NCBI RefSeq assembly: GCF_022447245.1
Contig: NZ_JAKVBC010000010.1
Span: 1-64,000, forward strand
Origin: Kordia sp.
Lineage (GTDB): Bacteria; Bacteroidota; Bacteroidia; Flavobacteriales; Flavobacteriaceae
Direction of reading: 5' to 3'
Length of the DNA: 64,000 bases
Part shown: in pieces, positions 23,916-38,547 of the stretch
Layout: each line of letters begins with the position of its first letter
Numbering within the stretch: position 1 is the stretch's first letter
Translations under genes and position numbers: made by a program
Notes under the pieces: model-generated
Seen by the model: only the letters and a program-made list of their open reading frames with translations
What the model was told of the DNA's origin: nothing
Database searches by the model: none

Positions 23916-24233
23916 ATGCAAACCAATTTCAAACCCTATTATGCGGTCATTTTCACCTCAACTCAAACCGAAAACTTAGAAGGTTATGCGGAAATGTCAG
24001 CACACGTGGAAAATCTAGCCAAACAACAACCCGGATTTATAGGCATTGATAGCGCTCGAAATGCAATTGGAATTACCATAAGTTATTGGGAAAGTTTAGA
24101 AGCGATTCAGCAATGGAAACAACATACCGATCATTTGGTAGCACAACGAAAAGGCATCAAAGATTGGTATGCGTATTATAATGTAAAAATCTGCAAAGTA
24201 GAACGCGAGTATAGTTTTAAAGAACGTTTTTAA
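23916..24233 (+). CDS. Antibiotic biosynthesis monooxygenase (ABM)-like small protein
   Basis: A 105-residue ferredoxin-like dimeric alpha-beta protein with the ABM signature: an N-terminal Y-Y-A-V-I-F strand, QPGFIGIDSAR and ISYWESLEAIQQWKQHTDHL. Relatives include quinol monooxygenases and many small proteins of unknown substrate. It starts two bases after the T9SS gene ends, so probably cotranscribed. Confidence 0.8.
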   Translation: MQTNFKPYYAVIFTSTQTENLEGYAEMSAHVENLAKQQPGFIGIDSARNAIGITISYWESLEAIQQWKQHTDHLVAQRKGIKDWYAYYNVKICKVEREYSFKERF

Positions 24234-24245
24234 TTAAAAATTTCT

Positions 24246-24382
24246 AACGTCACTTCGAGTGTTTTTTTATTATGAAATGAAGAAAAAATGTATTGAGAAA
24301 TACTGTGAAAATATAAAAGTAATACAAATACCAAAGTAGATTTCGATATAACGAATCACAGATTCAACGCTCGATCTGACGT
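24246..24382. repeat. Dispersed Flavobacteriaceae-type inverted repeat, copy 1
   Basis: About 137 bases bounded by AACGTCACTTCGAGTG and CGCTCGATCTGACGT, with an inner TATTGAGAAAT...ATTTCGATATA pair. The same architecture recurs at 41893-42032. It ends 16 bases ahead of the pbpC start, so it forms most of the pbpC leader. Non-coding and MITE-like. Confidence 0.75.
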
Positions 24383-24398
24383 ACACAGATGAAACGAA

Positions 24399-26753
24399 AT
24401 GCTAAAATACATCATTAACAAAATAAAGAACAACAGAATAAAAACAGCCATCATCATGATACTGTTGATTGCTTACTATTTCTGTTTGCCAGCAACTTTA
24501 TTTGATGTACCAACCTCCACGGTTATTGAAAGCAAAGAAGGCATTTTATTAGGCGCAAAAATTGCGGATGATGGACAATGGCGATTTCCTCAGTTAAATA
24601 CTGTTCCAGAGAAATTTAAAACCTGCATCATACAGTTTGAAGATGCCTATTTCTACAGTCATCCTGGTTTTAATCCAGTTTCCATGTCAAAAGCATTGTG
24701 GCAAAACATCACTTCAGGAGAAGTACAACGTGGTGGAAGTACTTTGACACAACAGGTCATTCGCTTAGCTCGAAAAGGAAAAAAACGTACGTATATAGAG
24801 AAAGTCAAAGAAATCATTTTGGCGACACGCTTGGAGTTTTGCTATTCCAAAGATGAAATATTAAAGCTTTATGCTTCACACGCGCCTTTTGGTGGAAATG
24901 TCGTTGGATTGGATGCTGCAGCTTGGCGGTATTTTGGAAGAAGGCCACAAGAATTGTCTTGGGCAGAAAATGCAACCTTAGCTGTGTTACCCAATGCTCC
25001 AAGTTTGATTTATCCTGGAAAGAATCAAATACGATTAAAAAACAAGCGCAATCGCTTACTCAAAAAACTATTCGATCAACAAATTATTGACAAACTCACG
25101 TATGATTTGGCAATTAAAGAATCTTTGCCTCAAAAGCCTTATGCTTTACCACAAACTGCAAAACACTTGCTCGATAAAGTTGCAGAAACACACAAAGGAA
25201 AACGTATACGGACTTCTGTAAAAAGCTATTTACAAGAAGAAACCAATGCGATTGTTGCCAAACATTATAAGGAATTGCAACAGAACCAAATTTACAATGC
25301 TGCCGTTTTGGTATTGGATGTAAAAACTCGAAAAGTACTCGCATATGTAGGCAATACACCAACGGATAAAGCCCATCAAAAAGATGTCAATATCATTCAC
25401 AAACCGCGAAGTACAGGAAGTATTATGAAACCGTTTTTGTATAGCGCAATTTTAGATGCAGGCGATTTACTTCCTAATACCTTAGTGGTAGATGTTCCAA
25501 CACAAATTGGGAATTACAATCCAAAGAATTTTAAGGAAACCTATGATGGCGCTGTAACTGCCAAACGTGCATTGGCGCGTTCGTTGAATGTTCCTGCGGT
25601 GCGTATGTTGCAGCAATTTGGTTTGGATAAATTTTACTATTATTTGCAAAAATTACAATTAAAAGATATATCGTATAATGCCGATCATTATGGTTTATCG
25701 TTAATACTTGGAGGTGCTGAAAGTAATTTATGGGATTTGTGTAAAACGTATGCTGCCTTTTCATCAACCTTGACACATTTTGGAGAAAATTCGAGTCAAT
25801 ACTTTACAAATGAATTTTCTGAACCCACTTTTTTGATGGATGAAAACGTTGATTTTGGTTCGCTTGCTGCCGAAAAAACAATCTTTGATGCAGGATCGAT
25901 ATACTTAACTTATGAATCTTTGAAAGAAGTCAATCGTCCAGAAGGTGAAGAAAACTGGGAATTTTTTGATTCTAGCAAGCAAATTGCATGGAAAACAGGA
26001 ACAAGTTTTGGTTTTCGAGACGCATGGGCCATTGGAACCACCAAAGATTATGTAGTTGGTGTTTGGGTTGGAAATGCAGATGGTGAAGGTCGTCCCGGAT
26101 TGATTGGAACAGTTGCCGCTGCTCCTATTCTATTTGATGTATTTGATATTCTGCCTAAAAGCGAATGGTTTGACATTCCTTATGATGAATTGGTAGAAAT
26201 TGAAACTTGTGCGCAAAGCGGTTACAGAGCTTCTGAGTTATGTGTGGAAAAACAACAACAATTTATTCCTACAAGCGGATTGAAAACAAAACCGTGTCCA
26301 TATCATAAGTTAGTGCATTTAGATTTGGACGAGCGTTATCAAGTCAACTCTTCTTGTCAGCCATTGAGTCAAATGGTACACAAAAGTTGGTTTGTGCTGC
26401 CTCCTTTGATGGAATATTACTATCAAAACAAAAATCCACTATATCGAACCTTGCCTCCTTTTCGAAAAGATTGTACTGCGGAGTTTCAAAAAAGTATGGA
26501 CTTTATTTACCCTGAAGAAGCCACAAAAGTATTTCTTCCAAAAGATTTTGATGGTAACAAAAATGGTGTCATTTTACGATTGGCGCATTCCATTCCAGAC
26601 ACAAAAGTATTTTGGTATATAGATGAAACCTTTTTAGGAACTACCGAAACCATTCATGAAATGGAAGTAAAACCTGAAACTGGCATTCACAAAATTACAG
26701 TGGTAGACGCATTGGGCAATGAAGCCAAACGGACTATTGAAATTCAAGAATAA
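24399..26753 (+). CDS. pbpC: Penicillin-binding protein 1C
   Basis: A 784-residue class A PBP. One membrane helix (about residues 15-35) is followed by a GT51 glycosyltransferase domain with catalytic E81 in EDAYFYSHPG and RGGSTLTQQ (111-119). The transpeptidase domain has the S-x-x-K serine in STGSIMKPF (near 341) and KTGTS (near 530). The C-terminal region (about 690-784) fits the BiPBP_C domain typical of PbpC. It polymerises and possibly crosslinks peptidoglycan. In many bacteria pbpC sits beside an alpha-2-macroglobulin gene as a damage-response pair; here two genes lie between them. Confidence 0.93.
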   Translation: MLKYIINKIKNNRIKTAIIMILLIAYYFCLPATLFDVPTSTVIESKEGILLGAKIADDGQWRFPQLNTVPEKFKTCIIQFEDAYFYSHPGFNPVSMSKALWQNITSGEVQRGGSTLTQQVIRLARKGKKRTYIEKVKEIILATRLEFCYSKDEILKLYASHAPFGGNVVGLDAAAWRYFGRRPQELSWAENATLAVLPNAPSLIYPGKNQIRLKNKRNRLLKKLFDQQIIDKLTYDLAIKESLPQKPYALPQTAKHLLDKVAETHKGKRIRTSVKSYLQEETNAIVAKHYKELQQNQIYNAAVLVLDVKTRKVLAYVGNTPTDKAHQKDVNIIHKPRSTGSIMKPFLYSAILDAGDLLPNTLVVDVPTQIGNYNPKNFKETYDGAVTAKRALARSLNVPAVRMLQQFGLDKFYYYLQKLQLKDISYNADHYGLSLILGGAESNLWDLCKTYAAFSSTLTHFGENSSQYFTNEFSEPTFLMDENVDFGSLAAEKTIFDAGSIYLTYESLKEVNRPEGEENWEFFDSSKQIAWKTGTSFGFRDAWAIGTTKDYVVGVWVGNADGEGRPGLIGTVAAAPILFDVFDILPKSEWFDIPYDELVEIETCAQSGYRASELCVEKQQQFIPTSGLKTKPCPYHKLVHLDLDERYQVNSSCQPLSQMVHKSWFVLPPLMEYYYQNKNPLYRTLPPFRKDCTAEFQKSMDFIYPEEATKVFLPKDFDGNKNGVILRLAHSIPDTKVFWYIDETFLGTTETIHEMEVKPETGIHKITVVDALGNEAKRTIEIQE

Positions 26754-26938
26754 TTATTTTCTCTATATTTCAAAAACTCAGATAACGATTTATACTTCTT
26801 TTTGAGATTTTCGTAAAAAACAAGCACGGTAAGATCAAAAGAAATTACTGATTCCATAAAGATATTTTTTACTTCACTCACTGTTAAATTTGGATCATAA
26901 GATCGAACAATACAACAATTCAGGAAACTATTGGTATT
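26744..26938 (-). pseudogene. Remnant of a minus-strand gene at the pbpC 3' end
   Basis: About 64 codons stay open on the minus strand and read like a protein C-terminus (SYDPNLTVSEVKNIFMES, VLVFYENLKKKYKSLSEFL), ending at a TGA inside the last codons of pbpC. Upstream the frame closes and no continuation is clear. I do not recognise the family. It could be a degraded gene or a short real one with Met within the open stretch. Confidence 0.35.
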
Positions 26939-27071
26939 TTACAGAAGTTCGCCTATCATAAAAAAGCTAAGTCGTCCTTTAAAATCTTTTTAATGTTCAG
27001 GTTTTTAATCCTTAACAGTGAAAATAGGATAGTTTTAAGTGTTAATAGTTGTATGGTATTGTTTATTTAAA

Positions 27072-27500
27072 ATGAAGATATCTTACAATACATGGCAAAA
27101 ATTTAATCGTCAAAATCAACGAGATTTGTTTAGACCACTTTAAAGGGAGCTTATTAACTTCATTGATGACTTTGTATTAGTAGTAGATAAAATAGATTGG
27201 TCTTACTTCAAGGATTCATTTTCCTAAATTTTATTCAAATACAGGCAAACCAACTATACTTATACTTTTTTATGGTTGATAGTTTACAATTAAAATGTAT
27301 CTGTAATTTAGGCAATTAAATATTGTATAAAGTTATAAGACGAGATTTTATATGCAATCCTTTTTTGTATGGCTTATTTTGGGGATTGATCCAGTTACCT
27401 AGTAAACCATATAAAACGTATTGCTGCCTTTGGATGATAGAAGATATTTACATTTTCAGTAAAGATAGGTGATAAATCGGCTCAAAAAAATTAATACTTT
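27072..27500 (+). mobile_element. Degraded IS transposase (IS5-like) remnant
   Basis: Pieces of one transposase N-terminal region lie in order but in different frames: from the ATG at 27072, RDLFRPL, then a stop, then RELIN and IDWSYFKDSFS; from 27229 in another frame, FYSNTGKPTILI; from 27272 in the third frame, MVDSLQLKCICNLGN; and near 27399, LVNHIKRIAAFG. The order 'RELI...IDWxxFE..F...YS..GKP..PIRLMVG..LK.IYNLGDE...LVHFRKRIG' is that of an IS5-type transposase family. At least two frameshifts and several stops make it inactive. No terminal inverted repeats were identified. Confidence 0.6.
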
Positions 27501-27864
27501 CAACTAAAAACAGTACAAGCTTTTCTAGCTGAAATGTAATGGAATACAAAGAAAATGATGAAAAAACTAAAACAGCCAACTAACCTAACTAGTTTTCAAT
27601 TTCTTAAAATGACATTAAAATACGTATTGTTGAAAATTGAACCTAATTAGAAAGGAGCAACTGATTAAAATTACCTGTAACTAATTTAGACAACTATGTT
27701 TCAAACCAACATTAGTAACTTGGCATATATTTGGAAGATGATTTTTTCATACGTCATAGTGAATAAAATGAAGCTATCTACAACTATAGCAACAGATTAT
27801 CTCGTCATAAATTCCTCGTAAAGACATTTCATATAATATCAAAAAACTCACCTTCCAAATACTA

Positions 27865-28818
27865 TTAGGTGCATACTAATTCAACAGCTCCTGCAGTTAC
27901 ATTAAATACCATTTGCTGTACCGTAATTCCCATCATTACATTTTCATTTTGCAATACTAACAAACACTGCTTTTCATGTACTGTTTTTTGTGTTTTTAAT
28001 AATTTTGAAGCAGCATCAAAACGTCCACAGGAAGTGGCTTGCAAAATATTACCTGCCGATGCTCCATTTTGAAGCTTTTTGTAATCGTTGGTAACGACAA
28101 TAAAATTTTCTTCTGAAATTCGTGTTGCTGTTCGTTTTGGCGTACGTTCAATCACTACTTTTTCATTTGATTCTATTCCCGAAAGCAACAATAAACAATC
28201 ACAAATAATTGGCGTATTTTCAAGTGTTACTTTTGCTTCTTCAAACGAATTGCAAGTTTCCAACACATCACGCAATAGAAAGGAAATTGGCAGTGCTAAT
28301 TCTGATTGATCTTCGCTTAAAACAGCATTTAAGGTAATTGCAAATTTTTGTGGTTTTATGCCTGAAAGAGCTCCAACAAATCCTGGCCAACCAATGGTTT
28401 TAAAAACTGTTTTTCCATTTTTTTGATAGTCAAAAATCATAGAATGTGTGCTTAATATGTTATCATCTGTATGCCAATCTAAGTTACGGGCATGCAACAT
28501 TTCATTGCCATTCCAAGTTACGAAAGCAGTACATCCAAAGTATAGTTTTAATATGTCGTAATACAAGTTTGCTACTAAGATTTCATTCACTGAAAAATCT
28601 GAAATTGCGGCAATACTTTCTATTTCCTGAACGTATGATTCGCTCACAAACTGTTTTTTGTATACTTCAACGCCTTCAAAAATAAATTCTGCTCCTGTAA
28701 AGTCGTTCAAATAGCATTCTATCAATTCGTCTACTTCTTTTGTATATGCTTTTAGAAATGACCAACGTTGGTTTGGTGGCAAATCTAAGTTTACAATATG
28801 TGTTTTTATTTCTTCCAT
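27865..28818 (-). CDS. Ntn-type amidase, NAAA / acid ceramidase-like
   Basis: A 317-residue protein of the N-acylethanolamine acid amidase/acid ceramidase (linear amide C-N hydrolase) superfamily. The likely nucleophile is the Cys of YFGCTAFVTW (about residue 95), followed by HARNLDWH, whose R and D belong to the active site; NDYKKLQ and SCGRFDAA match the downstream conserved segments. Mammalian relatives are activated by cleavage before this Cys. It has no signal peptide, so it would be cytosolic here, unusual for the family. Last gene of the RNA-repair-like operon, four bases after the nucleotidyltransferase-like gene; why an amidase is there is unknown. Confidence 0.8.
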   Translation of the reverse strand: MEEIKTHIVNLDLPPNQRWSFLKAYTKEVDELIECYLNDFTGAEFIFEGVEVYKKQFVSESYVQEIESIAAISDFSVNEILVANLYYDILKLYFGCTAFVTWNGNEMLHARNLDWHTDDNILSTHSMIFDYQKNGKTVFKTIGWPGFVGALSGIKPQKFAITLNAVLSEDQSELALPISFLLRDVLETCNSFEEAKVTLENTPIICDCLLLLSGIESNEKVVIERTPKRTATRISEENFIVVTNDYKKLQNGASAGNILQATSCGRFDAASKLLKTQKTVHEKQCLLVLQNENVMMGITVQQMVFNVTAGAVELVCT

Positions 28819-28822
28819 TTTT

Positions 28823-29371
28823 TTATTCTTTAGGAATTGTAACTAATTCTATACGATCAAGTGGATCTATATTTTTATCCAACAATCGTAGCGAAGCTTG
28901 TACTGCCCAACATTTATCACTTGAATGAATATTGCTATATAAACTCAATAAAAATGATGGTTCTACGACATTCCATTCTTTTACAAATCGTGATGGAACG
29001 GCAGACTTCACAAAGAAATCAATCGTAATTCTGATCGATTTTCCTGTGTCAGTTTCCACTGTTTTTTCGTAGCGTCTAAAATTTTCTTCACTTGGTAAAT
29101 GATCGTATCGCGTCCATACTTTTTTAAAATCGCGTTGGTGTAGTACATACATGACTTCCGCAACATTTTTGGGATCTACAAAGACGTCAATATCTTTATG
29201 ATCGTGTGCATGCTTGTATTCTGTATGTCCTTCTGGCGATAAAAAATGCCATGCCCAACCACCGGATAGAATCACAAATTCTCTTAGAAATTGTAATTCA
29301 AGTAAAGACAGTGAAATACGGTCTTGTGACCATACTTCACCATATCTTTTTTTGTTGTGTGGCGCTCCCAT
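28823..29371 (-). CDS. Nucleotidyltransferase-fold protein
   Basis: A 182-residue protein whose centre reads LSGGWAWHFLSP...HDHKDIDVFVDP. A G-G-x-A segment followed by H-K-D-I-D-V-F is the minimal nucleotidyltransferase pattern (GG...DxD) of small aminoglycoside- or tRNA-modifying type enzymes. The C-terminal part carries a conserved DFF and KCWAVQASLRLL. Eight bases after prfH and four before the amidase. A role in RNA end modification would suit the operon, but this is inference; the catalytic acids should be checked structurally. Confidence 0.6.
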   Translation of the reverse strand: MGAPHNKKRYGEVWSQDRISLSLLELQFLREFVILSGGWAWHFLSPEGHTEYKHAHDHKDIDVFVDPKNVAEVMYVLHQRDFKKVWTRYDHLPSEENFRRYEKTVETDTGKSIRITIDFFVKSAVPSRFVKEWNVVEPSFLLSLYSNIHSSDKCWAVQASLRLLDKNIDPLDRIELVTIPKE

Positions 29372-29379
29372 AAGTTGTT

Positions 29380-29976
29380 CTATTTTTTAAAAACTTGTAC
29401 TGGATTCCCAAGTTGCAACTGTTTGTGCTGCATCCACTTTTGTTTTTCCATGGTGTTTTGTCGTTGTTGATTTTGCGCATTTATCGCCATATCCAACCTT
29501 ACAAAAGCTAGTTTTTTGTTTAAAAATTGCGAGCGTTCTTCGCTTGCTTGTACTGTAATTCCTGTAGGAATATGTGTCATACTTACTGCCGTTTCTACTT
29601 TGTTTACATGTTGTCCACCAGCTCCAGAACTTCGCGCAGTTTTTACTTGCACTTCTTTTGGAGACCATAAAATTTGTGTTGGCATTACGTATACTTTCAC
29701 ATTTACAAACCAGTTTTTACGCTGATGATGTGGACGATACGGACTTCTAAAAATAAACTGAACAGTTCCTTGCCAATGGTTTTTAAAATCAACTGTATCT
29801 CCTGTAGCACGTAACCAAACAGATTTATAGTTTTGGTATTTTGTAGCAACCCACTCAATGACGTTGAATGTAAAATTTGGTAATCTAGTTAGCTTTTCTG
29901 TTAAGTATTTTACGGCGAGGCAGCATTCTTCAGGTCCTGAACCTGAGGAAATTTGCACCCAAAATTGATTGTCCAT
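29380..29976 (-). CDS. prfH: Peptide chain release factor homologue PrfH
   Basis: A 198-residue release-factor relative lacking the stop-codon recognition domains. The GGQ peptidyl-hydrolysis motif is in GAGGQHVNKVETAV (GGQ 120-122), and RSPYRPHHQRKNWFV is the PrfH signature. PrfH releases nascent chains from ribosomes whose 16S rRNA is damaged in the decoding centre and is typically encoded beside RtcB, which reseals the break. Here rtcB lies two genes upstream on the same strand, with a TPR gene between. The Lys/Gln-rich C-terminus resembles the ribosome-binding tail of ArfB. Confidence 0.92.
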   Translation of the reverse strand: MDNQFWVQISSGSGPEECCLAVKYLTEKLTRLPNFTFNVIEWVATKYQNYKSVWLRATGDTVDFKNHWQGTVQFIFRSPYRPHHQRKNWFVNVKVYVMPTQILWSPKEVQVKTARSSGAGGQHVNKVETAVSMTHIPTGITVQASEERSQFLNKKLAFVRLDMAINAQNQQRQNTMEKQKWMQHKQLQLGNPVQVFKK

Positions 29977-29989
29977 AATTTCTATTTTT

Positions 29990-30547
29990 TTAATCTAACA
30001 TGGAATTGAATTTCACATTAGTTGTTTTGTTTTTACGTTTTGATTTTTTCTTTTTTGACTTCTTTCCAACTTTTGTTTTTTCATATACACGTTGTAATTG
30101 ACCGTCAATAAAGTATCTGAAATTGTTATTCATTGCGCACTTTTTAGCTGCTTTCAAATTTGCTTTTGCTTCTTTGAATTCCTCCAATTTCTCATGAATC
30201 ATCGCTTTTGCATGATATAATCGCGCTTTGTCTGTTTGTGGTAATGAGAAACCAACTTCTAATACATGTTCCGCTTCGTTATAATCGCAGATGTCGATTA
30301 ACAAGTATGGATAAAAATAATAGGTTTCTACATATTCATGATCTATACACAAAGCACGATGGTAATATTCACGAGCCTTTTCATAATCGTGTGCGTGTTC
30401 GTGATATATTTTACCCATCAAATAATTAGCGCCTGCATGATCGTTTCCGCCCAATATGTATTGTAATTTTTGCACACATTGCTCTAAATCATACGAGTAG
30501 CTATCTAATGCTTGAATGAATACGATATCATTTGTATATGTTGACAT
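29990..30547 (-). CDS. Lys-tailed TPR protein in the RNA-repair operon
   Basis: About 185 residues. Tetratricopeptide-like helical pairs run from residue 15 to 150 (ANYLMGKIYHEHAHDYEKAREYYHRAL is one clear unit), followed by a strongly basic tail (GKKSKKKKSKRKNK), a likely RNA- or ribosome-binding extension. A longer frame to 30631 runs through a dispersed repeat, so I place the start at the Met at 30547 (MSTYTND). It ends 13 bases before prfH. No family assignment; a scaffold for PrfH, RtcB or damaged ribosomes is a reasonable hypothesis. Confidence 0.72.
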   Translation of the reverse strand: MSTYTNDIVFIQALDSYSYDLEQCVQKLQYILGGNDHAGANYLMGKIYHEHAHDYEKAREYYHRALCIDHEYVETYYFYPYLLIDICDYNEAEHVLEVGFSLPQTDKARLYHAKAMIHEKLEEFKEAKANLKAAKKCAMNNNFRYFIDGQLQRVYEKTKVGKKSKKKKSKRKNKTTNVKFNSMLD

Positions 30548-30560
30548 TTTTTTCGTTTCT

Positions 30561-30635
30561 GTCATTACGAGTGAAATGAAGTAATCTGTTCCTGAGAAAC
30601 AGATTGCCACGAATTTTTCAAATTCTCGCAATGAC
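30561..30635. repeat. Dispersed palindromic repeat between rtcB and the TPR gene
   Basis: Outer arms GTCATTACGAG (30561-30571) and CTCGCAATGAC (30625-30635), with inner arms AATCTGTT and AAACAGATT. This 'GTCATTGCGAG...AATCTGT' form is a familiar intergenic repeat in many genomes. Its presence explains the spurious N-terminal extension of the TPR frame and shows an insertion into the operon. Confidence 0.75.
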
Positions 30636-30672
30636 GTTGTTTGTTATTAGATTTATTTAATCTTCAGTTAGA

Positions 30673-30711
30673 ATACTAGAGAAACCTTGAGAACCTTAGT
30701 TTCTCTAGTAT
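30673..30711. repeat. 13-bp perfect hairpin downstream of rtcB
   Basis: Arms ATACTAGAGAAAC (30673-30685) and GTTTCTCTAGTAT (30699-30711) with a 13-base loop and no T tract. It may stabilise the rtcB 3' end or mark a processing site inside the operon. Confidence 0.6.
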
Positions 30712-30778
30712 ATTGTGAAGACGCAACTCTACTTCGTTTCCGCTCAGCGCAACCTACACTTAGCGAAGTTGAAGTATA

Positions 30779-32176
30779 CTATCGATCCATGCGAACGATT
30801 TTTGGCGTGAATGTTCCTACTACTTCCACCAATTCTGTTTGATTGCACATGACTTGGTGAATATTTTTGTATGCCATTGGCGCTTCGTCAATTCCGCCGC
30901 CAATTAAAGTCACACCATGATCTTTTAATTGCTTCTTAATATCACTTTGTGTGATGGTTTGCTTAGCTTTTCGTCTAGATAATTGTCGTCCTGCTCCGTG
31001 AGAAGCGGATTGTAACGAATGTTTGTTTCCTGTTCCTCTAACAATAAATCCTGGCGCTGTCATCGATCCTGGAATGATCCCCAAAACTCCTTTTTGTGCT
31101 GGTGTTGCTCCTTTTCGATGTACAACGAGTTCTTCGCCATTAACGACTTCTTTCCAAGCGAAGTTGTGATGATTTTCCACCATCGCCAAAGGTCTTGCTC
31201 CTAAAGCTTTTGCTAAACGCTTGTGAATATCGTGATGACATGCCGATGCATAGTCACCTGCTAAATTCATTGCCAACCAGTATTCTTGTCCATCGTGCGT
31301 ATTTAGATCGAGCCATGCTAAGTTTTTCGCTTCTCCTGGTAAAGGTGTTTGCTTAATTGCTAATTTTGTGTAATGTTTAGCAATATTTGCACCTAAACCA
31401 CGCGATCCGCTATGTGACAGAATTCCTAAATACTTCCCGATAGGAACATTAAATTCGTTATTTTCATCCGAAACGTCTACAATTCCAAATTCTACAAAGT
31501 GATTTCCACCACCTGACGAACCTAATTGTTTATATGCTTTATTGAGCAGTTTTTTTACCGTTGGAATGTATTTGAATTCTGCACGTTCAAAGATTTCATG
31601 ATCATTGATACGCTTGTGAGTTTCATAACTTCCAAATTTGGTATGCTCTTGCAACATATTCACATATTTGTCACGATGTCCATCGATGTATGAAGCTGGA
31701 ATATCGTATAATGACAAACACATTCTACATCCAATATCGACACCAACTCCATAAGGAATTACTGCATCTTTAGCCGCTAATACGCCACCAATTGGCAAAC
31801 CATATCCTGAATGTCCATCCGGCATGAGTGCTCCTGCTTTTGCAATTGGTAATTTTAGCGCTGTATATAACTGATGTTTTGCTTCTTCGGCAATTCCGTT
31901 TTCACCAAATATGGTAAAAGGCGCACGTTTCGTTTCTAATTGTTTTGCTTCTACTTGTACAGGAGTTGTCAATTCTTCAGCAATTCTTCCAACCATTCCA
32001 TCTCCTATATATTTTTCAGGATTTTTAAGTATCGTTTTTAAACGTTGTAATACTTTATCTTTACGTTCACGTTTAAAATTTCGTAGCATTACATCGATAG
32101 CAATACTGATTACTTTTCCTTTTTGTGGATATCCTATGTCTATGAGGTCTTTGCCTCGTAATTTTAATTTTGCCAT
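30779..32176 (-). CDS. rtcB: RNA-splicing ligase RtcB
   Basis: A 465-residue RtcB. Mn2+ ligands are visible as D147 and C150 in GVDIGCRMC, H226 in GGGNHF, H255 in SHSGSRG and a His in ENHHNF (336/337); the guanylylated His is H393 in SHGAGR. RtcB joins RNA ends with 2',3'-cyclic phosphate or 3'-phosphate to 5'-OH using GTP. Its association with PrfH is the known arrangement for repairing ribosomes nicked in 16S rRNA. It follows the PcfJ-like gene after ten bases. The protein looks complete and active; no RtcA or RtcR is encoded here. Confidence 0.95.
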   Translation of the reverse strand: MAKLKLRGKDLIDIGYPQKGKVISIAIDVMLRNFKRERKDKVLQRLKTILKNPEKYIGDGMVGRIAEELTTPVQVEAKQLETKRAPFTIFGENGIAEEAKHQLYTALKLPIAKAGALMPDGHSGYGLPIGGVLAAKDAVIPYGVGVDIGCRMCLSLYDIPASYIDGHRDKYVNMLQEHTKFGSYETHKRINDHEIFERAEFKYIPTVKKLLNKAYKQLGSSGGGNHFVEFGIVDVSDENNEFNVPIGKYLGILSHSGSRGLGANIAKHYTKLAIKQTPLPGEAKNLAWLDLNTHDGQEYWLAMNLAGDYASACHHDIHKRLAKALGARPLAMVENHHNFAWKEVVNGEELVVHRKGATPAQKGVLGIIPGSMTAPGFIVRGTGNKHSLQSASHGAGRQLSRRKAKQTITQSDIKKQLKDHGVTLIGGGIDEAPMAYKNIHQVMCNQTELVEVVGTFTPKIVRMDR

Positions 32177-32186
32177 AACTTACATT

Positions 32187-33494
32187 TTAAAGCCATTTTC
32201 CGATTTTTAAATCGTGTTGCACTGCCCAATCGTTCATAATTTTTTTGGCAATTGGTGCTATTGGCTTGTTAAATCGTGCTTTTGCTTGAACGATTGTTTG
32301 TGATTTTATATCTAATTCAATCGTTGCTAAGATTTCGTGTCCTTTAGAAAAACTGATGCATCTCAATGAAAAGATACCAGTTACTTTTACACAGCATGAA
32401 CGTGCGTATGATGCTACACAATGATTCATTTTTCGACCTTCTACAATCAATTCTTTGGAAGAGCATAACTCAAATAAGCGATACTTTTTTAGTTCTTTTG
32501 CTTCCTTTTTTTCAAATAGATAGGAACTGTTTAAGGTTGGTTTCCATGTAAACATTTCTACCTGAAATGCATTGTTAACAGCTTGTTCTACGTGCCAAGC
32601 ATCTGATTGTCTAGTCAACGATGCAATGGTTCTTCCTTTGATAGAATATTCAGGATTATTACGAATACGATCGCTCAAATAATCGATGATTTCTTCCATT
32701 TTATTGAAATCTAACATCGTTTGTTTCATGAAGAATTGAATCACCGTTTCCCAAAAAGCTTCATGCTGAAAATTGTTTCGACTCAATGCTGTACATGCAA
32801 TACGTCCTGCCAATAATTCATCGGTTCCAAACGCTAATGCTTGTGCTCTACGCAGTGCCATTTCAATGGTATATTCTGCTGGTGCTTGTAAAAATTGATG
32901 CGCTCCTTTTTTAGTTAAACGCACTGGCATTTTTGATAAGCTTTTTACACTTTTTCCGCTTCCTAAGTCAATAAACCAAGCAATATGTTTTGAGTTATGA
33001 TCTGTCCATGCTTCATACATAAAATCTGGAACTTGATATGTAACAAAACAGTGTTTTAAAATGCTCTTTAATTGCTTCTCAGCATTATGGCTGTTTCGCT
33101 TCCATTCTATAATATCTCTAACATATGCTGGACTGAACCAAGCTATTAGGTAAATTGTTCTCAAAAATTCTTCATTTCTTAAAAGCTTAGTACAACGCTT
33201 TTTGTAAAGATGTAATAAGATATCTTTAAACGCTTTACGTCTGCTTGGATGCTTCTTTTTGCTTATAGCATTGAAGTGATTTTGTAATATGCTCGCTAGC
33301 GAATTGTATTCGTAGTTACTTATTTCTTTTCCTTCGTAAATTTTTTCGACCATTGCTGGAAACAGTACTTTTTTAGCTTTGTTATGTTTTTGTAAGCTTT
33401 CTTGTAATGCTGCTTCTCTAGCTTTTGCGGCAAGCTTTTCCTTTAATCTTCTGGACTTCGAAATATGCTTTCGATGTATATTTTTTGTTTCCAT
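32187..33494 (-). CDS. PcfJ-like protein heading the RNA-repair operon
   Basis: A 435-residue protein with a basic N-terminus (METKNIHRKHISKSRRLKEK) and, near the C-terminus, the PcfJ-domain motif EGRKMNHCVASYA (about 352-364), followed by GIFSLR and a strand pair. PcfJ-like proteins occur on plasmids and in many Bacteroidota chromosomes; their biochemical activity is unknown. It is the first gene of the minus-strand operon and is separated from rtcB by ten bases, so its role should concern RNA damage sensing, repair or ribosome quality. The conserved His-Cys of the motif looks like a possible active site; that is speculation. Confidence 0.78.
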   Translation of the reverse strand: METKNIHRKHISKSRRLKEKLAAKAREAALQESLQKHNKAKKVLFPAMVEKIYEGKEISNYEYNSLASILQNHFNAISKKKHPSRRKAFKDILLHLYKKRCTKLLRNEEFLRTIYLIAWFSPAYVRDIIEWKRNSHNAEKQLKSILKHCFVTYQVPDFMYEAWTDHNSKHIAWFIDLGSGKSVKSLSKMPVRLTKKGAHQFLQAPAEYTIEMALRRAQALAFGTDELLAGRIACTALSRNNFQHEAFWETVIQFFMKQTMLDFNKMEEIIDYLSDRIRNNPEYSIKGRTIASLTRQSDAWHVEQAVNNAFQVEMFTWKPTLNSSYLFEKKEAKELKKYRLFELCSSKELIVEGRKMNHCVASYARSCCVKVTGIFSLRCISFSKGHEILATIELDIKSQTIVQAKARFNKPIAPIAKKIMNDWAVQHDLKIGKWL

Positions 33495-33507
33495 GACTGT
33501 CTCTTTT

Positions 33508-33619
33508 GAGTGTTGTTTTCAGTAAAAAATTTTAATTCGTGTGTTTGTTGTCTTTGTTCTCGCATCTTTGCTTTTTTATGGATTAAAAATTCTTTTTTGT
33601 TGGTACTGAAAACACACTC
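33508..33619 (-). promoter_or_regulatory. Long-range inverted repeat in the operon leader
   Basis: GAGTGTTGTTTTCAGT (33508-33523) and ACTGAAAACACACTC (33605-33619) are complementary apart from one inserted base. In the minus-strand transcript they would close an 80-base loop 14 bases ahead of the PcfJ-like start codon, and could affect its translation. Confidence 0.45.
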
Positions 33620-33727
33620 CCGAGTCTACAGTCTTTCCATTTGTTTGATTAAATTCATCTTTCGTTGTTTTGTATCGCTACACGATTTCTAGGTTTTTGT
33701 TGTGTTGTTGTAATTAACTAATTCAAA

Positions 33728-33763
33728 TAAAAAAGCCCGATTCTGCAATAGAACCGAGCTTTG
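33728..33763 (-). terminator. Intrinsic terminator inside the operon leader (minus)
   Basis: Stem AAAGCCCGATTCT / AGAACCGAGCTTT (11 of 13 paired) with a loop of about four bases. On the minus strand the hairpin is followed by a run of six T; on the plus strand the T tract is poor. No annotated minus-strand gene ends here, so it terminates either a leader or a small RNA. Confidence 0.6.
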
Positions 33764-33894
33764 ATACTGATGGGTATTTTATCCTTTACATGAAAGAATA
33801 ATTTGGTTCTAAAATGAACAATTGCTGCATGATTGCAGTGTTTGTTACGATATGTCTTATTGCTGGTTTTAGCATATATTTCAAAAATGAGCAT

Positions 33895-33931
33895 TAAAAA
33901 AACCCGAGCCTTTTGTGGACTCGGGTTTTTA
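33895..33931. terminator. Strong intrinsic terminator upstream of the RNA-repair operon
   Basis: Stem AAACCCGAG / CTCGGGTTT with an 11-base loop, a run of seven T on the minus strand and five on the plus strand. It lies between divergent units and ends no recognised gene. Confidence 0.75.
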
Positions 33932-34076
33932 ATGATGAGTTATATTTCTATCGAAAGATACAACTGGTAAAACCCAAGTCGCGCATCGGAATGTTTCCAA
34001 CACTGTTGTGATATGTAAGTTTTACTTTTTGCACGTTTTCGTTTTTTGTTACTAATTAATTTTTGTTGCGTTTCAA
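33895..34076 (-). ncRNA. Candidate small RNA or attenuated leader
   Basis: Bounded by a minus-strand promoter-like pair at 34083-34115 and the terminator at 33895-33931, giving a predicted transcript of about 180 nt. The interval has no convincing coding frame. It could be an independent RNA or the attenuated 5' leader of the PcfJ-RtcB-PrfH operon. No homology to a named RNA family was recognised. Confidence 0.3.
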
Positions 34077-34082
34077 CGGTTG

Positions 34083-34115
34083 CAAATATAGAAGATCATT
34101 TTTTAAAATTCCAAA
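34083..34115 (-). promoter_or_regulatory. Promoter-like element for the leader/small RNA
   Basis: Read on the minus strand: TTTG (34112-34115), a 21-base spacer, then TATATTTG (34083-34090), a perfect TAnnTTTG box. The spacer is about two bases longer than usual. Confidence 0.45.
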
Positions 34116-34598
34116 TTTATTTTTTCAAAGACCACTTGTAAAGAGCATTTTACTCATCCAAATCATCTTATTTTTTAGGTTCATTTTAAGACTATTTTTA
34201 GTCGTTTTTAATTCAACTTGAAGCTAGATATTTCCTGCAATTTTCTTTGAGAAAACCAACCAATTTTCATCTGTGAAAAAACACTGTATATTTTCGAATA
34301 AAAATTTATTTTATTTTTTTCAAAAAAATAGTTTTTTCACTCCAAAAAGCTATCAATTTTTCTACTTTTTCATCTCGATTTAATTCTTCAAACGATATTT
34401 TTATCTGTTTTTCCTTGTTTGAATTACAACTATTCTCACTTTTTAATAAGCATTTTTTTGTTTGATATTTTTTATTTATAACAAAAGTTCTTCTTAAGAA
34501 TTGCAATCTAAATTTCTTAATTTATTATATTTAAATAACTATTTAAGCTAGGAGATGTATTATAGAGGTTCTTTTTTCTTTGGGTTCAAAAATTTGAA
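34116..34598. other. AT-rich intergenic stretch
   Basis: About 480 very AT-rich bases. A minus-strand frame at 34306-34506 (66 codons, very Lys-rich) is the only open one; I do not think it is a gene. No other structure seen. Confidence 0.45.
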
Positions 34599-36774
34599 CA
34601 TGGTTTTTTTTGGAGTCTTTTTTCCATTATCACAAGCACTGCTCAAGAAATTCATAATAAAAAACTAGATTCGTTGTATCAGTTGGTACTGGCACAAATG
34701 CAATCTGATAATTACTACGAATCTTTAAAAATAATTTATCAAATACAAGAAGTTTCTGCCGGAAAAAAATCTCAGTAATTACAAAGCAGATGCCGATAAT
34801 TTATTTGGTTTGTCTTATGTCCAACACTATGCGTACGATAAAGCAGAAAGCCATTTTGATAAAGCGATTGATTCTAATACAAAACGAAATGATTCCGTGA
34901 GTCTTGCAATTAATTATGCCAATTTGCTACACTTATATGTTCTTGCAAAAAACTACGATAAATACGATTCGCATATAGCACAAGCAAGAATGGCAGACGC
35001 TAAAGTACATAACCGAAATCGCTTTTATTATTACGAAACTGAAGTCATACGATTGTATGATTTAAAAAAGTTTGATTCATTAATTTATGTTTCAAAAAAA
35101 GCACTGCATGATATAAAAAATGGCTTTTATTTTTCTGTGTACTCTAATGAGAAGCAAAAGACATCTGTTAAGAATCGTTCAGAAATTACTTTTGAGTTGT
35201 TTTTAGCGTACGCTTTAATGGAGAAAAACCTTGAAAGCAGCAACTCTTATAAACTTTTAAACAAGTTAGAAAAGATTCATCTTGAAGAAGTTTTATGGTT
35301 CAGTCCAAGAGTTTTTGAACATATTTCCAGAGTTCGATCTTATAAAGAGTTGTATCATATTAGACAGCAATATACAGATAAAGATTCTATACTTTATTAT
35401 AAAAATGAAGCGGCAAAATATGCTGAAAATGCAAATGATCTTTTAACGAAAAAGTCTGCTGAAAAAACCAGTATGTTATCAATTCAATTAACAAAGAAGA
35501 AGAGTTAAAAAGAAGTCAGATTATCAACGAAAATCAAGCTAGCGAGAATACTTTAATCAAAAAAATCAACTACTTATTTATTACCCTTTCTATTATTAGT
35601 TTTTCCCTTTTGATTTATTGTTATACCTCTTCAAAAAAACTTCGCAAAACCAATACTGATTTACAAAAATTACAAGCAGATAGAAATACGTTTTTAGGAG
35701 TCGTAAGTCATGAAATTAGAACGCCTCTTTACGCTTTACAAGAACTGGTTGCCAAATTAGTGAGTGAACAAAAAGGGCAAAATAAAGAAGAAATTGCACA
35801 TATCAACAACTCCATTATTAATCTAAGACATGCTATTGATAATTCTTTGCAATTCTCTCGTTTCAACTATTTTTGCATCAATATTCATTCTCACTATCGC
35901 GAAGTAAATCTGATAGAGTTTACAAAAGAAATACAGCAATATTTCAGCGCTATTTTACAAATACATACTTGTGATATAGAGATTCGTCACAATCTTAAAA
36001 ATCAACTATTTGTTTTAGATGAAGCCAAACTAACTATTGTATTTCGGAATATTTAAAAATGCCGAAGAAGCTTCTGATGTGACTAAAATTACCTTTGAAA
36101 TCAAAGAACATATTGTTTCAGACACAACTTCTGAGATTCTGTTTCGTATTGAAGATAATGGAAAAGGGATTCCTGAAAAAACAATAGAAGATATACAGCA
36201 ATAACGTATTTTACTTCCTAATGAAAATGAACATAAAGGCATTCGTTTAGGACTTATTTTATGTAATCAAATTTTATCCTTGTATGATATCAATTATCAT
36301 TTAATAATAAGGTGTAATTTACACCAAGTAGCATTTCCTATAGTATTGAAAAGAGCTAGTGCAACTCTTCAAAAAAGTCAATCCAAACCTTCTCAAAAAA
36401 GGAATTCGAGCCATATTTTATTTGTTGATGACAATAAAATCAACTTATTAATTACTAAAAAAAATATTGAAAGTTTGTCTTTGGCATGTGATACTGTAGA
36501 TAATGGTCATGATGCAATTCAAAAAATCACAACCAAAAAATATAGTCTTATTTTGATGGATTTAAACATGCCTGATATTGACGGTTTTGAAACAACACAG
36601 GAGATAAAGAAACTACAACCTTCTATTCCAATAGTGGCACATACAGTATTGAGTAATGATGAAGTTGCCACCAAATGTAGCGAAGCAGGCATGTATGACA
36701 TTCTTACAAAGCCGATGCAAAAAGTGAAGTTAAAGCGAATTTTAAAAATGCTTTTAATTCTTGAGTCTAATTAA
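34599..36774 (+). pseudogene. Degraded TPR-containing hybrid histidine kinase
   Basis: Fragments of one sensor kinase follow in order: an N-terminal secreted TPR part (LDSLYQLVLAQMQSDNYYESL, then 34810-35508), a membrane helix (NYLFITLSIISFSLLIYCY), a HisKA domain with the phospho-acceptor in VVSHEIRTP (near 35709), an HATPase segment (RIEDNGKGIPEKT) and a receiver domain (HILFVDDNK, LILMDLNMPDIDG with the phospho-Asp, and the switch Lys in LTKPM) ending at 36774. Frameshifts occur near 34767 (a seven-A run), near 35490 and near 36054, where RNI-KNAEEA has lost two bases, and an in-frame TAA follows IEDIQQ near 36202. Four lesions make this a true pseudogene. Confidence 0.85.
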
Positions 36775-36787
36775 AAACTTATATCAT

Positions 36788-37654
36788 TTATTTTTTTAGA
36801 TACATTTTGAGCATAGAATGATCTGATTTCCATGTGACCAGCTTTTCTGTTTTTAGAATTTCCAAATCTTTTGAAACCCAGATATGATCTAGAGAAAGCA
36901 GCGGAATATTCCAAAACCAAGTTTCACGAAACCCATTTCCTTTTTCTGTAAAAGCGTGTTGATACTCTTTTTTAAATGTTTCAAAGAATAACGATTCAAA
37001 AGGCGTATTAAAATCACCCAGTATGATGTTTTTTTCGTCTGTTTTGACTTCAGAAAGAATACTTTCTAGCATCGGTTCTCGAAAATGTCGTAAATCTGAA
37101 GAGACATCAATCGCATAAAAATTTGTGTTTTTTGTGCTAAAATGAACCACAACAACATGATCTTTTGTTTTTACTTTTGAATGAACTTTTATGGGCATTT
37201 TTGAAAAAATTCCAACGGATTTTTCTGTGAGTTCAAAATGATAGTTTTTGTATTTTTCTTTGATTTTTTGATAGTCGTATTCATCACATTCAATCAAAAT
37301 CATCACATCCGGAGTTGATTTATTCACGGAAAATGCATCCTCAAAGTTTCGGACTCTGTACGCATTCCACAAAACAACTTCTATCGCATTTGTAGTGTCC
37401 ACATTAGGTGAAGTTGTGTAACTTCGGTTGAACCAAATAACTGCAATAACAAGTGCTACTATTATATAGTATTTTCTGGCGGAAGCCTCTGTAAACAGGA
37501 GTAAAAACAATAACCCGAGCACAATCATCGGAAGCGGTGTTCCATAAAAAAGTAACGCCGAAAGATAAAACATATCTTTGATCGTAAAGTGTACAATGAT
37601 TGCGAAAATCAGGAAGATTTGCAGTGCTTTTTTGAAATACTTTCGAATATTCAT
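36788..37654 (-). CDS. Membrane-anchored endonuclease/exonuclease/phosphatase-family protein
   Basis: About 288 residues. Two or three membrane helices occupy the first 85 residues; the rest is an EEP fold with VVLWNAYRV, the metal-binding Glu in LIECDEYDY, GDFNTP, SLDHIWVS and the final SDH of WKSDHSML. This layout matches periplasm-facing EEP proteins of unknown substrate in Bacteroidota. Starting at the Met at 37654 leaves two bases after the broken lipoprotein gene; a frame from 37693 would overlap it. Confidence 0.82.
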   Translation of the reverse strand: MNIRKYFKKALQIFLIFAIIVHFTIKDMFYLSALLFYGTPLPMIVLGLLFLLLFTEASARKYYIIVALVIAVIWFNRSYTTSPNVDTTNAIEVVLWNAYRVRNFEDAFSVNKSTPDVMILIECDEYDYQKIKEKYKNYHFELTEKSVGIFSKMPIKVHSKVKTKDHVVVVHFSTKNTNFYAIDVSSDLRHFREPMLESILSEVKTDEKNIILGDFNTPFESLFFETFKKEYQHAFTEKGNGFRETWFWNIPLLSLDHIWVSKDLEILKTEKLVTWKSDHSMLKMYLKK

Positions 37655-37656
37655 GT

Positions 37657-38547
37657 TTATCTTGAGACTGCCATAAATTTCATATTCTTCCAATACGTTT
37701 TCGTCCGCAATAAATACAGCGCTCTTAACAAGTCTAAGTAATTTTGATGAATGGTATTTGTTGTAATTTTATCCGAATTTATATTGTTTAAGCCAACTAT
37801 TGTATAGTGATTATCAATCTTTTTAAGATTTACGAATATCTCTTCCTTGTAAAATTTACTTTTTACGCTTTCTCCTTCAAATAAAGGATCCATTGCCAGA
37901 GCTTTTGGGAATTTAATTTCTTCTTTTAATTCTTCTAATCTGTTTATTTTTTTTGTGTAGTAATAGAGCGATTTTACAGCCTTAAAAGTAGCTGAATTAC
38001 AGGTTTCAGACAAGATGTTTATGTCATCTGTTAAAAAATAGGTTTTTACAGCTTTGTGAAACGAGTTGACAACTTTTAACACCGAATCAATTACTGATTT
38101 CTTTACTAAATATTCTTTCTGTTTTTGGATTTCATTTTTAGTCAGATGGATTTGAGCGGCACTAGGATACTTATTATTTTCTCCTTGAACCTTCCATTTT
38201 CCATTATCATCTTTACATAGATTTATAAAGTAATATTCATTTCGATTGGTATTGCAAACTGCGCAATCATCCTCAAGATTAACATTTGTTATTTTAATCC
38301 TTTTAATGTCTTCATTTATTCCTTGAGCTCCGCCAGCACGAAGCACTTTTGCATGTTCTTTATTAAGTTCAATGACTAAGAAAAGCGTATCTGAGGTGGC
38401 TTCTTTTTACATTGTCTCATCTCCTTGATTATAAGCGATTCGACCTTTTAAAAAGTTTTCACATACATTTTTAACCGTGCTTTCTTCTCTCATTTTTTCA
38501 CAACTACAGAGTAAAAAAAATATACAAAGCCAAATAAAATTCCTCAT
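37657..38547 (-). pseudogene. Lipoprotein gene with an in-frame stop at codon 47
   Basis: An ATG at 38545-38547 starts a lipoprotein signal (MRNFIWLCIFFLLCSC) and a frame of exactly 297 codons, but codon 47 (38407-38409) is TAA. After it the frame runs on through VIELNKEHAKVLRAGG to the end at 37657. Only the 229-residue C-terminal part remains open, and it would lack the export signal. The family is unknown to me. A single nonsense change in an otherwise clean frame suggests a young pseudogene. Confidence 0.7.

Follow-up and report, generated by a model that had tools for sequence, protein, structure and literature searches.

The closest described relatives of the locus analysed here are operons that pair the RNA ligase RtcB with PrfH, the peptide chain release factor H. 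The locus is a putative six-gene operon of the marine bacterium Kordia sp. (assembly GCF_022447245.1) lying on the minus strand within the first 64,000 nucleotides of contig NZ_JAKVBC010000010.1, and this whole stretch is called the window below. In E. coli the RtcB2-PrfH pair gives protection against colicin E3 (PMC9223846). TPR proteins and nucleotidyltransferases (NTases) as partners of PrfH-RtcB, together with the ideas of a scaffold and of RNA-end repair, were published in 2019 (PMC6514570), and the RtcB-PrfH pair with these two partners is already known. In P. aeruginosa, impairment of ribosomes induces the operon PA5471.1-armZ-PA5470, where armZ is RtcB-like and PA5470 is prfH, by way of a 13-aa leader peptide (PMC12057347, PMC3516279). 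In the literature found, switching of an RtcB-PrfH operon is described for Pseudomonas only, and its mechanism is still called unconfirmed there. In Anabaena rtcB and slipin share their regulation with a tRNA array (PMC10272220).

The Kordia locus is probably an inducible ribosome-repair operon that is switched at the translation level by its leader, which carries a short upstream open reading frame (uORF) and a long hairpin. The genes, their linkage, the in-register uORF, and the conserved hairpin are seen in the sequence, and translation of the uORF, the switch itself, and the roles of the added genes are inferred.

Gene content and linkage

In an earlier reading of this DNA, made from the sequence alone, six minus-strand genes were placed at 27865..33494 with gaps of mostly 4–13 bases. 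The open reading frames (ORFs) and family scores bear this out: six minus-strand ORFs at 33494-27865 follow each other in the order PcfJ-like, RtcB, TPR, PrfH, NTase, and C45, and the intergenic distances in transcription order are 10, 231, 13, 8, and 4 bp, the widest one, 231 bp between RtcB and TPR, being the only departure from the claimed spacing. The first gene (32187..33494) encodes a PcfJ-like protein of 435 aa, which is over the PF14284 gathering score (36.6 versus 25 bits). The RtcB RNA ligase (30779..32176; 465 aa) is above the PF01139 cut-off (276.1 versus 27 bits), its DGHxGYGxPIGG, Cys, and HGAGRxLSR blocks align with solved RtcB chains, and it is the single PF01139 gene detected in the window genome, G000. 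PrfH (29380..29976; 198 aa) possesses the GGQ motif, scores above the TIGR03072 cut-off (200.1 versus 166.65 bits), and has as its closest solved match 7sa4, which is itself a PrfH. RtcB and PrfH are genuine members of their families and stand on the same strand in one cluster, with the gene of the TPR protein (29990..30547; 185 aa, ATG start) between them. The NTase gene (28823..29371; 182 aa) and the gene of a C45 acid-ceramidase/NAAA-like N-terminal nucleophile (Ntn) hydrolase (27865..28818; 317 aa) complete the operon.

The neighbourhoods of these genes were surveyed in two samples. PrfH over the cut-off was found in 17 of 199 genomes of the family and in 26 of 395 genomes of the class, 41 in total since G000 and G127 belong to both sets. 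With clusters defined by the same strand and gaps of up to 1300 bp, and with profiles built from the PrfH loci, the 41 clusters contained RtcB (39), TPR (26), a basic family designated here as c4 (14), NTase (8), slipin (4), C45 (3), PcfJ (2), and RlaP (2); the 39 RtcB genes include a distant type, located downstream in L042 and L046 and before PrfH in L073. In the second survey a collection of 84,980 species genomes was scanned for the NTase, and among the best 80 of 152 relatives the loci contained PrfH (76), RtcB (75), TPR (74), c4 (48), C45 (6), and PcfJ (6). These rows are not independent because 48 of the 80 loci are from Chryseobacterium, and some genomes are in both surveys. Accessory genes are found beside RtcB-PrfH beyond this strain, as the 26 of 41 PrfH clusters with TPR demonstrate, and the cluster is beyond chance, as these genes are found together again and again in numerous genera. 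Inside the genus the cassette is modular: among 11 Kordia genomes RtcB and TPR are present in 11 each, PcfJ in 10, PrfH in 8, NTase in 4, and C45 in 4. The conserved neighbourhoods support the view of the sequence-only reading that the accessory genes are part of the RtcB-PrfH set, but its interpretation holds only partly and needs two corrections: the cassette is modular, and PcfJ prefers RtcB to PrfH.

This preference is evident from the distribution of PcfJ. Of 299 family genomes eight have its subfamily, and in six of these it lies immediately 5' of RtcB (G000, G135, G068, G179, G077 with two tandem copies, and G096); it is solo in G156 and at a contig end in G079. In Kordia it is present in 10 of 11 genomes (G000 and G179 are counted in the family set too) and stands directly before RtcB-TPR in nine of these ten, with c4 between PcfJ and RtcB in G691; the genome without PcfJ, G687, retains RtcB-TPR-PrfH. 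No over-cut-off PrfH was detected by genome scan in the PcfJ-RtcB genomes G068, G179, G077, and G096, and no adjoining PrfH was seen in the PcfJ neighbourhood of G690 and G693. Since PcfJ repeatedly accompanies RtcB in the absence of PrfH, it follows RtcB, not PrfH. The PcfJ family takes its name from a conjugative plasmid, and the pairing with RtcB would place this family in RNA repair. The conserved C-terminal block of the protein contains GxxMxHCVxxY; its AlphaFold model, with a predicted local distance difference test (pLDDT) value of 51.1, was unfit for fold search, and a profile search found no credible match among solved structures. Tandem PcfJ-like pairs precede RtcB at L196 (7952-10806) and L212 (7235-10000).

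Several observations concern the neighbouring families. The c4 proteins are of about 230–250 aa (e.g., L048 4821-5504), and four members tested had no Pfam family over cut-off. Of 145 scanned stretches, where some loci are represented by two, 68 contain them, mostly adjoining RtcB or PrfH; c4-PrfH without RtcB was seen twice, and c4 is absent from the window operon. RtcB is in adjacent split frames in L117, L127, and L162, and PrfH too in L117 and L162, either by decay or by sequencing error. Arrays of 7–19 tRNA genes of many isotypes lie within about 8 kb on either side of the RtcB-PrfH operon at 12 of 120 loci, some genomes being counted twice (L033, L035, L038, L040, L044, L045, L090, L102, L107, L111, L160, and L172), and seven of these have slipin. 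The window genome possesses a second RNA-repair island (L208; contig C14, 23001-43000) with RlaP, an RlaP-like NTase, 24 tRNA genes, slipin, and a 335-aa protein resembling by eye an Rnl2-type RNA ligase.

Wider scans of the operon were mostly negative. The six proteins gave no PADLOC match at E up to 0.01; four of them, searched in PHROGs together with two c4 proteins, matched families of unknown function only; and no Rfam match at gathering scores was found at 24000-38000. Bacteroidota promoters are of a type other than sigma-70-like. A sigma-70-like promoter scan gave 28 matches against a shuffle mean of 30.9, that is, no excess, with a consensus that may not be of the host's type. A dispersed repeat filling the RtcB-TPR gap was considered and left unconfirmed, its core 13-mer having a single occurrence within the window.

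Leader region

The leader elements lie upstream of, and outside, the interval of the earlier reading. On the minus strand these are the uORF MNLIKQMERL*, 10 codons and a stop (33626..33658), and a long hairpin (33495..33633), which is a candidate for masking the ribosome-binding site; the left arm of the hairpin starts in the last uORF codons, and its right arm extends right up to the PcfJ ATG. The uORF is kept in register in all 10 PcfJ-bearing Kordia genomes, nine close forms being obtained by motif search and the tenth, MKNLIREHQRL* of G693, identified by eye in the alignment. Over codons 1–8 the differences in frame 0 are 36 synonymous and 63 non-synonymous with no stops, compared to 17 synonymous, 80 non-synonymous, and 26 stop differences and to 9, 97, and 0, respectively, in the other two frames. 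Mean identity is 95–96% in the hairpin arms and 94.5% in the uORF, compared to 79% in the loop and 84% in the 5' flank.

The window hairpin has a stability z of -4.43, none of 200 shuffles being equally stable, and in further shuffles the ten Kordia hairpins gave z from -1.6 to -5.1, with eight of ten at -3 or below. The RNAalifold consensus of the 10 genomes consists of 26 pairs, of which 22 belong to the hairpin and the other four to a small stem upstream of it, and pairs that changed on both sides and yet were kept number two in the hairpin and one in the upstream stem. The leader combines a short conserved uORF with a predicted structure covering the downstream start.

The same layout, in other sequence, is found with PcfJ outside Kordia. 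A uORF ending in GFT* with a CTTTAC/GTAAAG hairpin precedes it at seven loci (L041, L160, L169, L172, L193, L195, and L197; the uORF start of L195 is TTG), and a third type, QFNRW* with a CCGG hairpin, stands before both PcfJ copies in L196. In sum, 19 of the 21 PcfJ copies read carry one of three uORF-plus-hairpin leader types, none of the three being found at the copies of L198 and L212 (upstream copy). In the GFT class the uORF stop is located 26–28 nt before PcfJ, covariation was seen in none of the seven stem pairs, and 2–10 of 200 shuffles were as stable; the peptide end is inside the stem, so RNA pairing alone may preserve it. In L195 the leader precedes a PcfJ that has no RtcB, and in G687, which lacks PcfJ, no uORF of the three motifs was found; therefore, the leader goes with PcfJ.

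One leader shared by all such operons was ruled out, as PcfJ-first, c4-first, and RtcB-first operons differ. In c4-first operons of Aquimarina and Dokdonia (14 loci read; L112 is without one) short uORFs lie near -95, MKFYxxxx in Aquimarina and MKxKNLxP in Dokdonia, which end at a near-constant place 67–72 nt before c4 (L100, L101, L103, L105-L110, and L114), and this suggests that c4-first operons have leaders too. Upstream of the window uORF the hairpin scan revealed a terminator-like hairpin with a T run (33732..33762, minus strand), which is present in five aligned Kordia leaders; a second T-run hairpin at 33898-33935, absent from the scan list, is seen in four of the five and is cut off in the fifth. 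These may be either terminators of the preceding transcript or part of the control.

TPR protein, NTase, and C45 hydrolase

The TPR protein matches TPR_19 barely above the cut-off (25.9 versus 25 bits). Its Lys-rich C-terminal tail is kept in most relatives, not in all, and the kept tail would fit ribosome binding by this protein.

For the NTase no family was found above cut-off, and its sequence profile gave no relative among solved structures at E up to 1. The motifs GGWAWH, HKDxDxF, and TIDFF and the residues G37, G38, D60, D62, and D118 are invariant across 41 sequences. The model (pLDDT 89.1) gave modest fold matches to the NTase-like 5uvd (E 8.4e-4), LnuA (2.3e-3), and ANT(2")-Ia (4.4e-3), with many DNA and poly(A) polymerases also among the matches and template modelling (TM) scores near 0.4. 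By its motifs and predicted fold the protein is assigned to the Pol-beta superfamily; fold matches of TM about 0.4 would not settle its substrate. Its identity as RlaP was rejected, with no PF10127 match at E up to 1, whereas the RlaP of L046 scores 78.9 bits.

The last gene product is above the NF040521 cut-off (126.2 versus 85 bits). Acid ceramidase aligns with both its alpha and its beta part, and Cys96 corresponds to the residue with which mature NAAA beta chains start, where the match begins; Cys96 is the predicted nucleophile at the autoprocessing site in this member of the acid ceramidase/NAAA family. No signal peptide was evident at the N-terminus by eye, no predictor being run. With the family, Kordia, and NTase surveys combined, C45 was found within the operon in 10 genomes of at least four genera (G000, G019, G156, G691, G688, G689, Dokdonia pacifica, Aquimarina litoralis, uncultured Aquimarina, and uncultured Lacinutrix). 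Its position varies: it stands after NTase, between NTase and PrfH, or, in G689, after PrfH without NTase, and in uncultured Lacinutrix it follows TPR at 1003 bp. Finding an amidase of the acid-ceramidase type among probable ribosome-repair genes prompts one to ask what amide it would cleave.

Proposed mechanism and alternative explanations

The leader layout, with the left hairpin arm beginning in the uORF and the right arm at the PcfJ start, fits translational attenuation. Upon normal completion of the uORF the long hairpin would reform and hide the PcfJ start, while a stalled or damaged ribosome on the uORF would hold the left arm open and permit translation of PcfJ-RtcB. From the direct precedent in Pseudomonas and from the E. 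coli pair it is inferred that Kordia expresses PcfJ-RtcB-TPR, with PrfH, NTase, and C45 where present, upon translation damage. The PcfJ-like protein, RtcB, and the basic-tailed TPR protein may form the core, to which PrfH, the Pol-beta NTase, and C45 would be a strain add-on. By homology with E. coli RtcB2-PrfH, PrfH would free the nascent chain from ribosomes cut at the 16S decoding site and RtcB would reseal the cut 16S ends; the probable role of the basic TPR protein is to anchor the factors at the ribosome and that of the NTase to restore or modify RNA ends nibbled by nucleases, and C45 may cleave some amide. If the leader answers to the damage that its operon mends, this would make a simple self-sensing circuit.

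A broader proposal, which is put forward tentatively and with considerable doubt, is that PcfJ-RtcB-TPR constitutes a separate RNA-repair system, with or without PrfH; that the leader peptides of the three types are sensors of ribosome failure which unmask the start; that leader control arose separately in Bacteroidota and Pseudomonas; and that NTase and C45 treat damage beyond the reach of RtcB-PrfH.

A number of observations weigh against a single inducible ribosome-repair operon. The RtcB scores under the cut-off of the PrfH-linked RtcB2 model TIGR03073 (143 versus 271.8 bits), and because of this it is not named RtcB2. The 231-bp gap after RtcB may separate two transcripts. PcfJ and C45 are rare in PrfH clusters (2 of 41 and 3 of 41). 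Among the best 80 NTase loci the NTase is alone at four, three of Parabeggiatoa and one of Planctomycetota; these genomes have RtcB in four of four and over-cut-off PrfH in none of four, so the NTase is not tied to PrfH. The C45 subfamily is present in 5 of 299 family genomes, three times in the operon (G000, G019, and G156) and twice in a Sir2-DUF4291-C45 cluster, in two genomes of one genus (L191 8122-10593; L192 7561-9969); its place beside Sir2 and DUF4291 means that C45 is not tied to PrfH either. In the leader, two of the ten genomes have a hairpin of low stability (12 and 13 of 200 shuffles were as stable), G693 has lost three adjoining pairs and G685 a single pair, and the majority of pairs in the arms are invariant.

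Some of these facts may be explained in other ways. There is an appreciable, though minor, chance that the hairpin merely couples PcfJ translation to the uORF or stabilises the mRNA, with no sensing: the 26–28 nt from the GFT-class stop to PcfJ is a spacing that fits simple coupling, and covariation is modest in Kordia and absent in the GFT class. Against this, the same layout recurs in three leader types of unlike sequence, and the leader of the Pseudomonas operon serves as a ribosome sensor. A different account concerns the purpose of the genes and is considered improbable: the operon would be a tolerance cassette against ribosome-targeting small molecules, where the NTase modifies the drug, C45 hydrolyses a natural-product amide, and PrfH-RtcB handles the RNA damage by the same rivals. 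The drug modifiers LnuA and ANT(2")-Ia are among the fold neighbours of the NTase, both NTase and C45 are found without PrfH, and Ntn amidases commonly act on small amides; however, the fold matches are weak (TM about 0.4), with DNA and poly(A) polymerases scoring alike, and PrfH adjoins the NTase in 76 of the best 80 loci.

The repaired molecule may also be cleaved tRNA and not 16S rRNA, with RtcB and NTase mending tRNAs and PrfH clearing stalled ribosomes. This idea is in line with the tRNA arrays found close to 12 of the 120 related loci, of which seven also have slipin, and with the array, RlaP, and slipin that the window genome carries on another contig, but it is rendered unlikely by the failure of E. 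coli RtcB2-PrfH to protect against tRNA-targeting toxins (PMC9223846) and by the lack of a tRNA gene within this window. Loose accretion in a defence-gene neighbourhood, where accessory genes of unrelated pathways hitch-hike, is quite unlikely; modular gain and loss inside one genus would agree with it, as would the NTase and PcfJ copies that stand alone and the C45 copies that belong to a different cluster, yet in several genera the partners are found together again, in altered order and for the most part closely spaced, which loose hitch-hiking would not keep. The leader-switched repair of ribosomes remains the probable explanation of the operon.

Comparison with known systems

Neither PcfJ nor C45 as a partner, nor any of these leaders, came up in the literature search, which had supplementary lists outside its scope, and as negative evidence this is weak. 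The RtcB2-PrfH operon of E. coli ATCC 25922 (PMC9223846) resembles the Kordia locus as an RtcB-PrfH operon with release and religation after 16S cleavage, whereas Kordia has a 465-aa RtcB below the TIGR03073 cut-off, four further genes, TPR between RtcB and PrfH, and the leader uORF with hairpin. The RFH/RtcB systems (PMC6514570) share the accreted TPR and the non-RlaP Pol-beta NTase beside PrfH-RtcB; the available text names two further partners, one a zinc-ribbon protein and the other an orphan charged protein, but neither PcfJ nor C45, and it describes no leader. The c4 family may be one of these orphan charged proteins.

The C45 protein is like acid ceramidase and NAAA in its alpha and beta parts and in the Cys nucleophile predicted at the processing site, and it differs from them in being encoded in an RNA-repair operon and in having no signal peptide by eye. 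The TrcR regulon of Anabaena (PMC10272220) is similar in that RtcB, slipin, and a silent tRNA array are joined in translation stress, but it is controlled by a repressor, prfH is absent from the available text of that report, and the Kordia array is on another contig. In P. aeruginosa a short leader peptide likewise lies 5' of the RtcB-like/PrfH operon; the control proposed there is transcriptional attenuation, and its 13-aa peptide is encoded about 250 bp upstream, whereas Kordia possesses a 10-aa peptide, a hairpin over the start region, and a PcfJ-like first gene.

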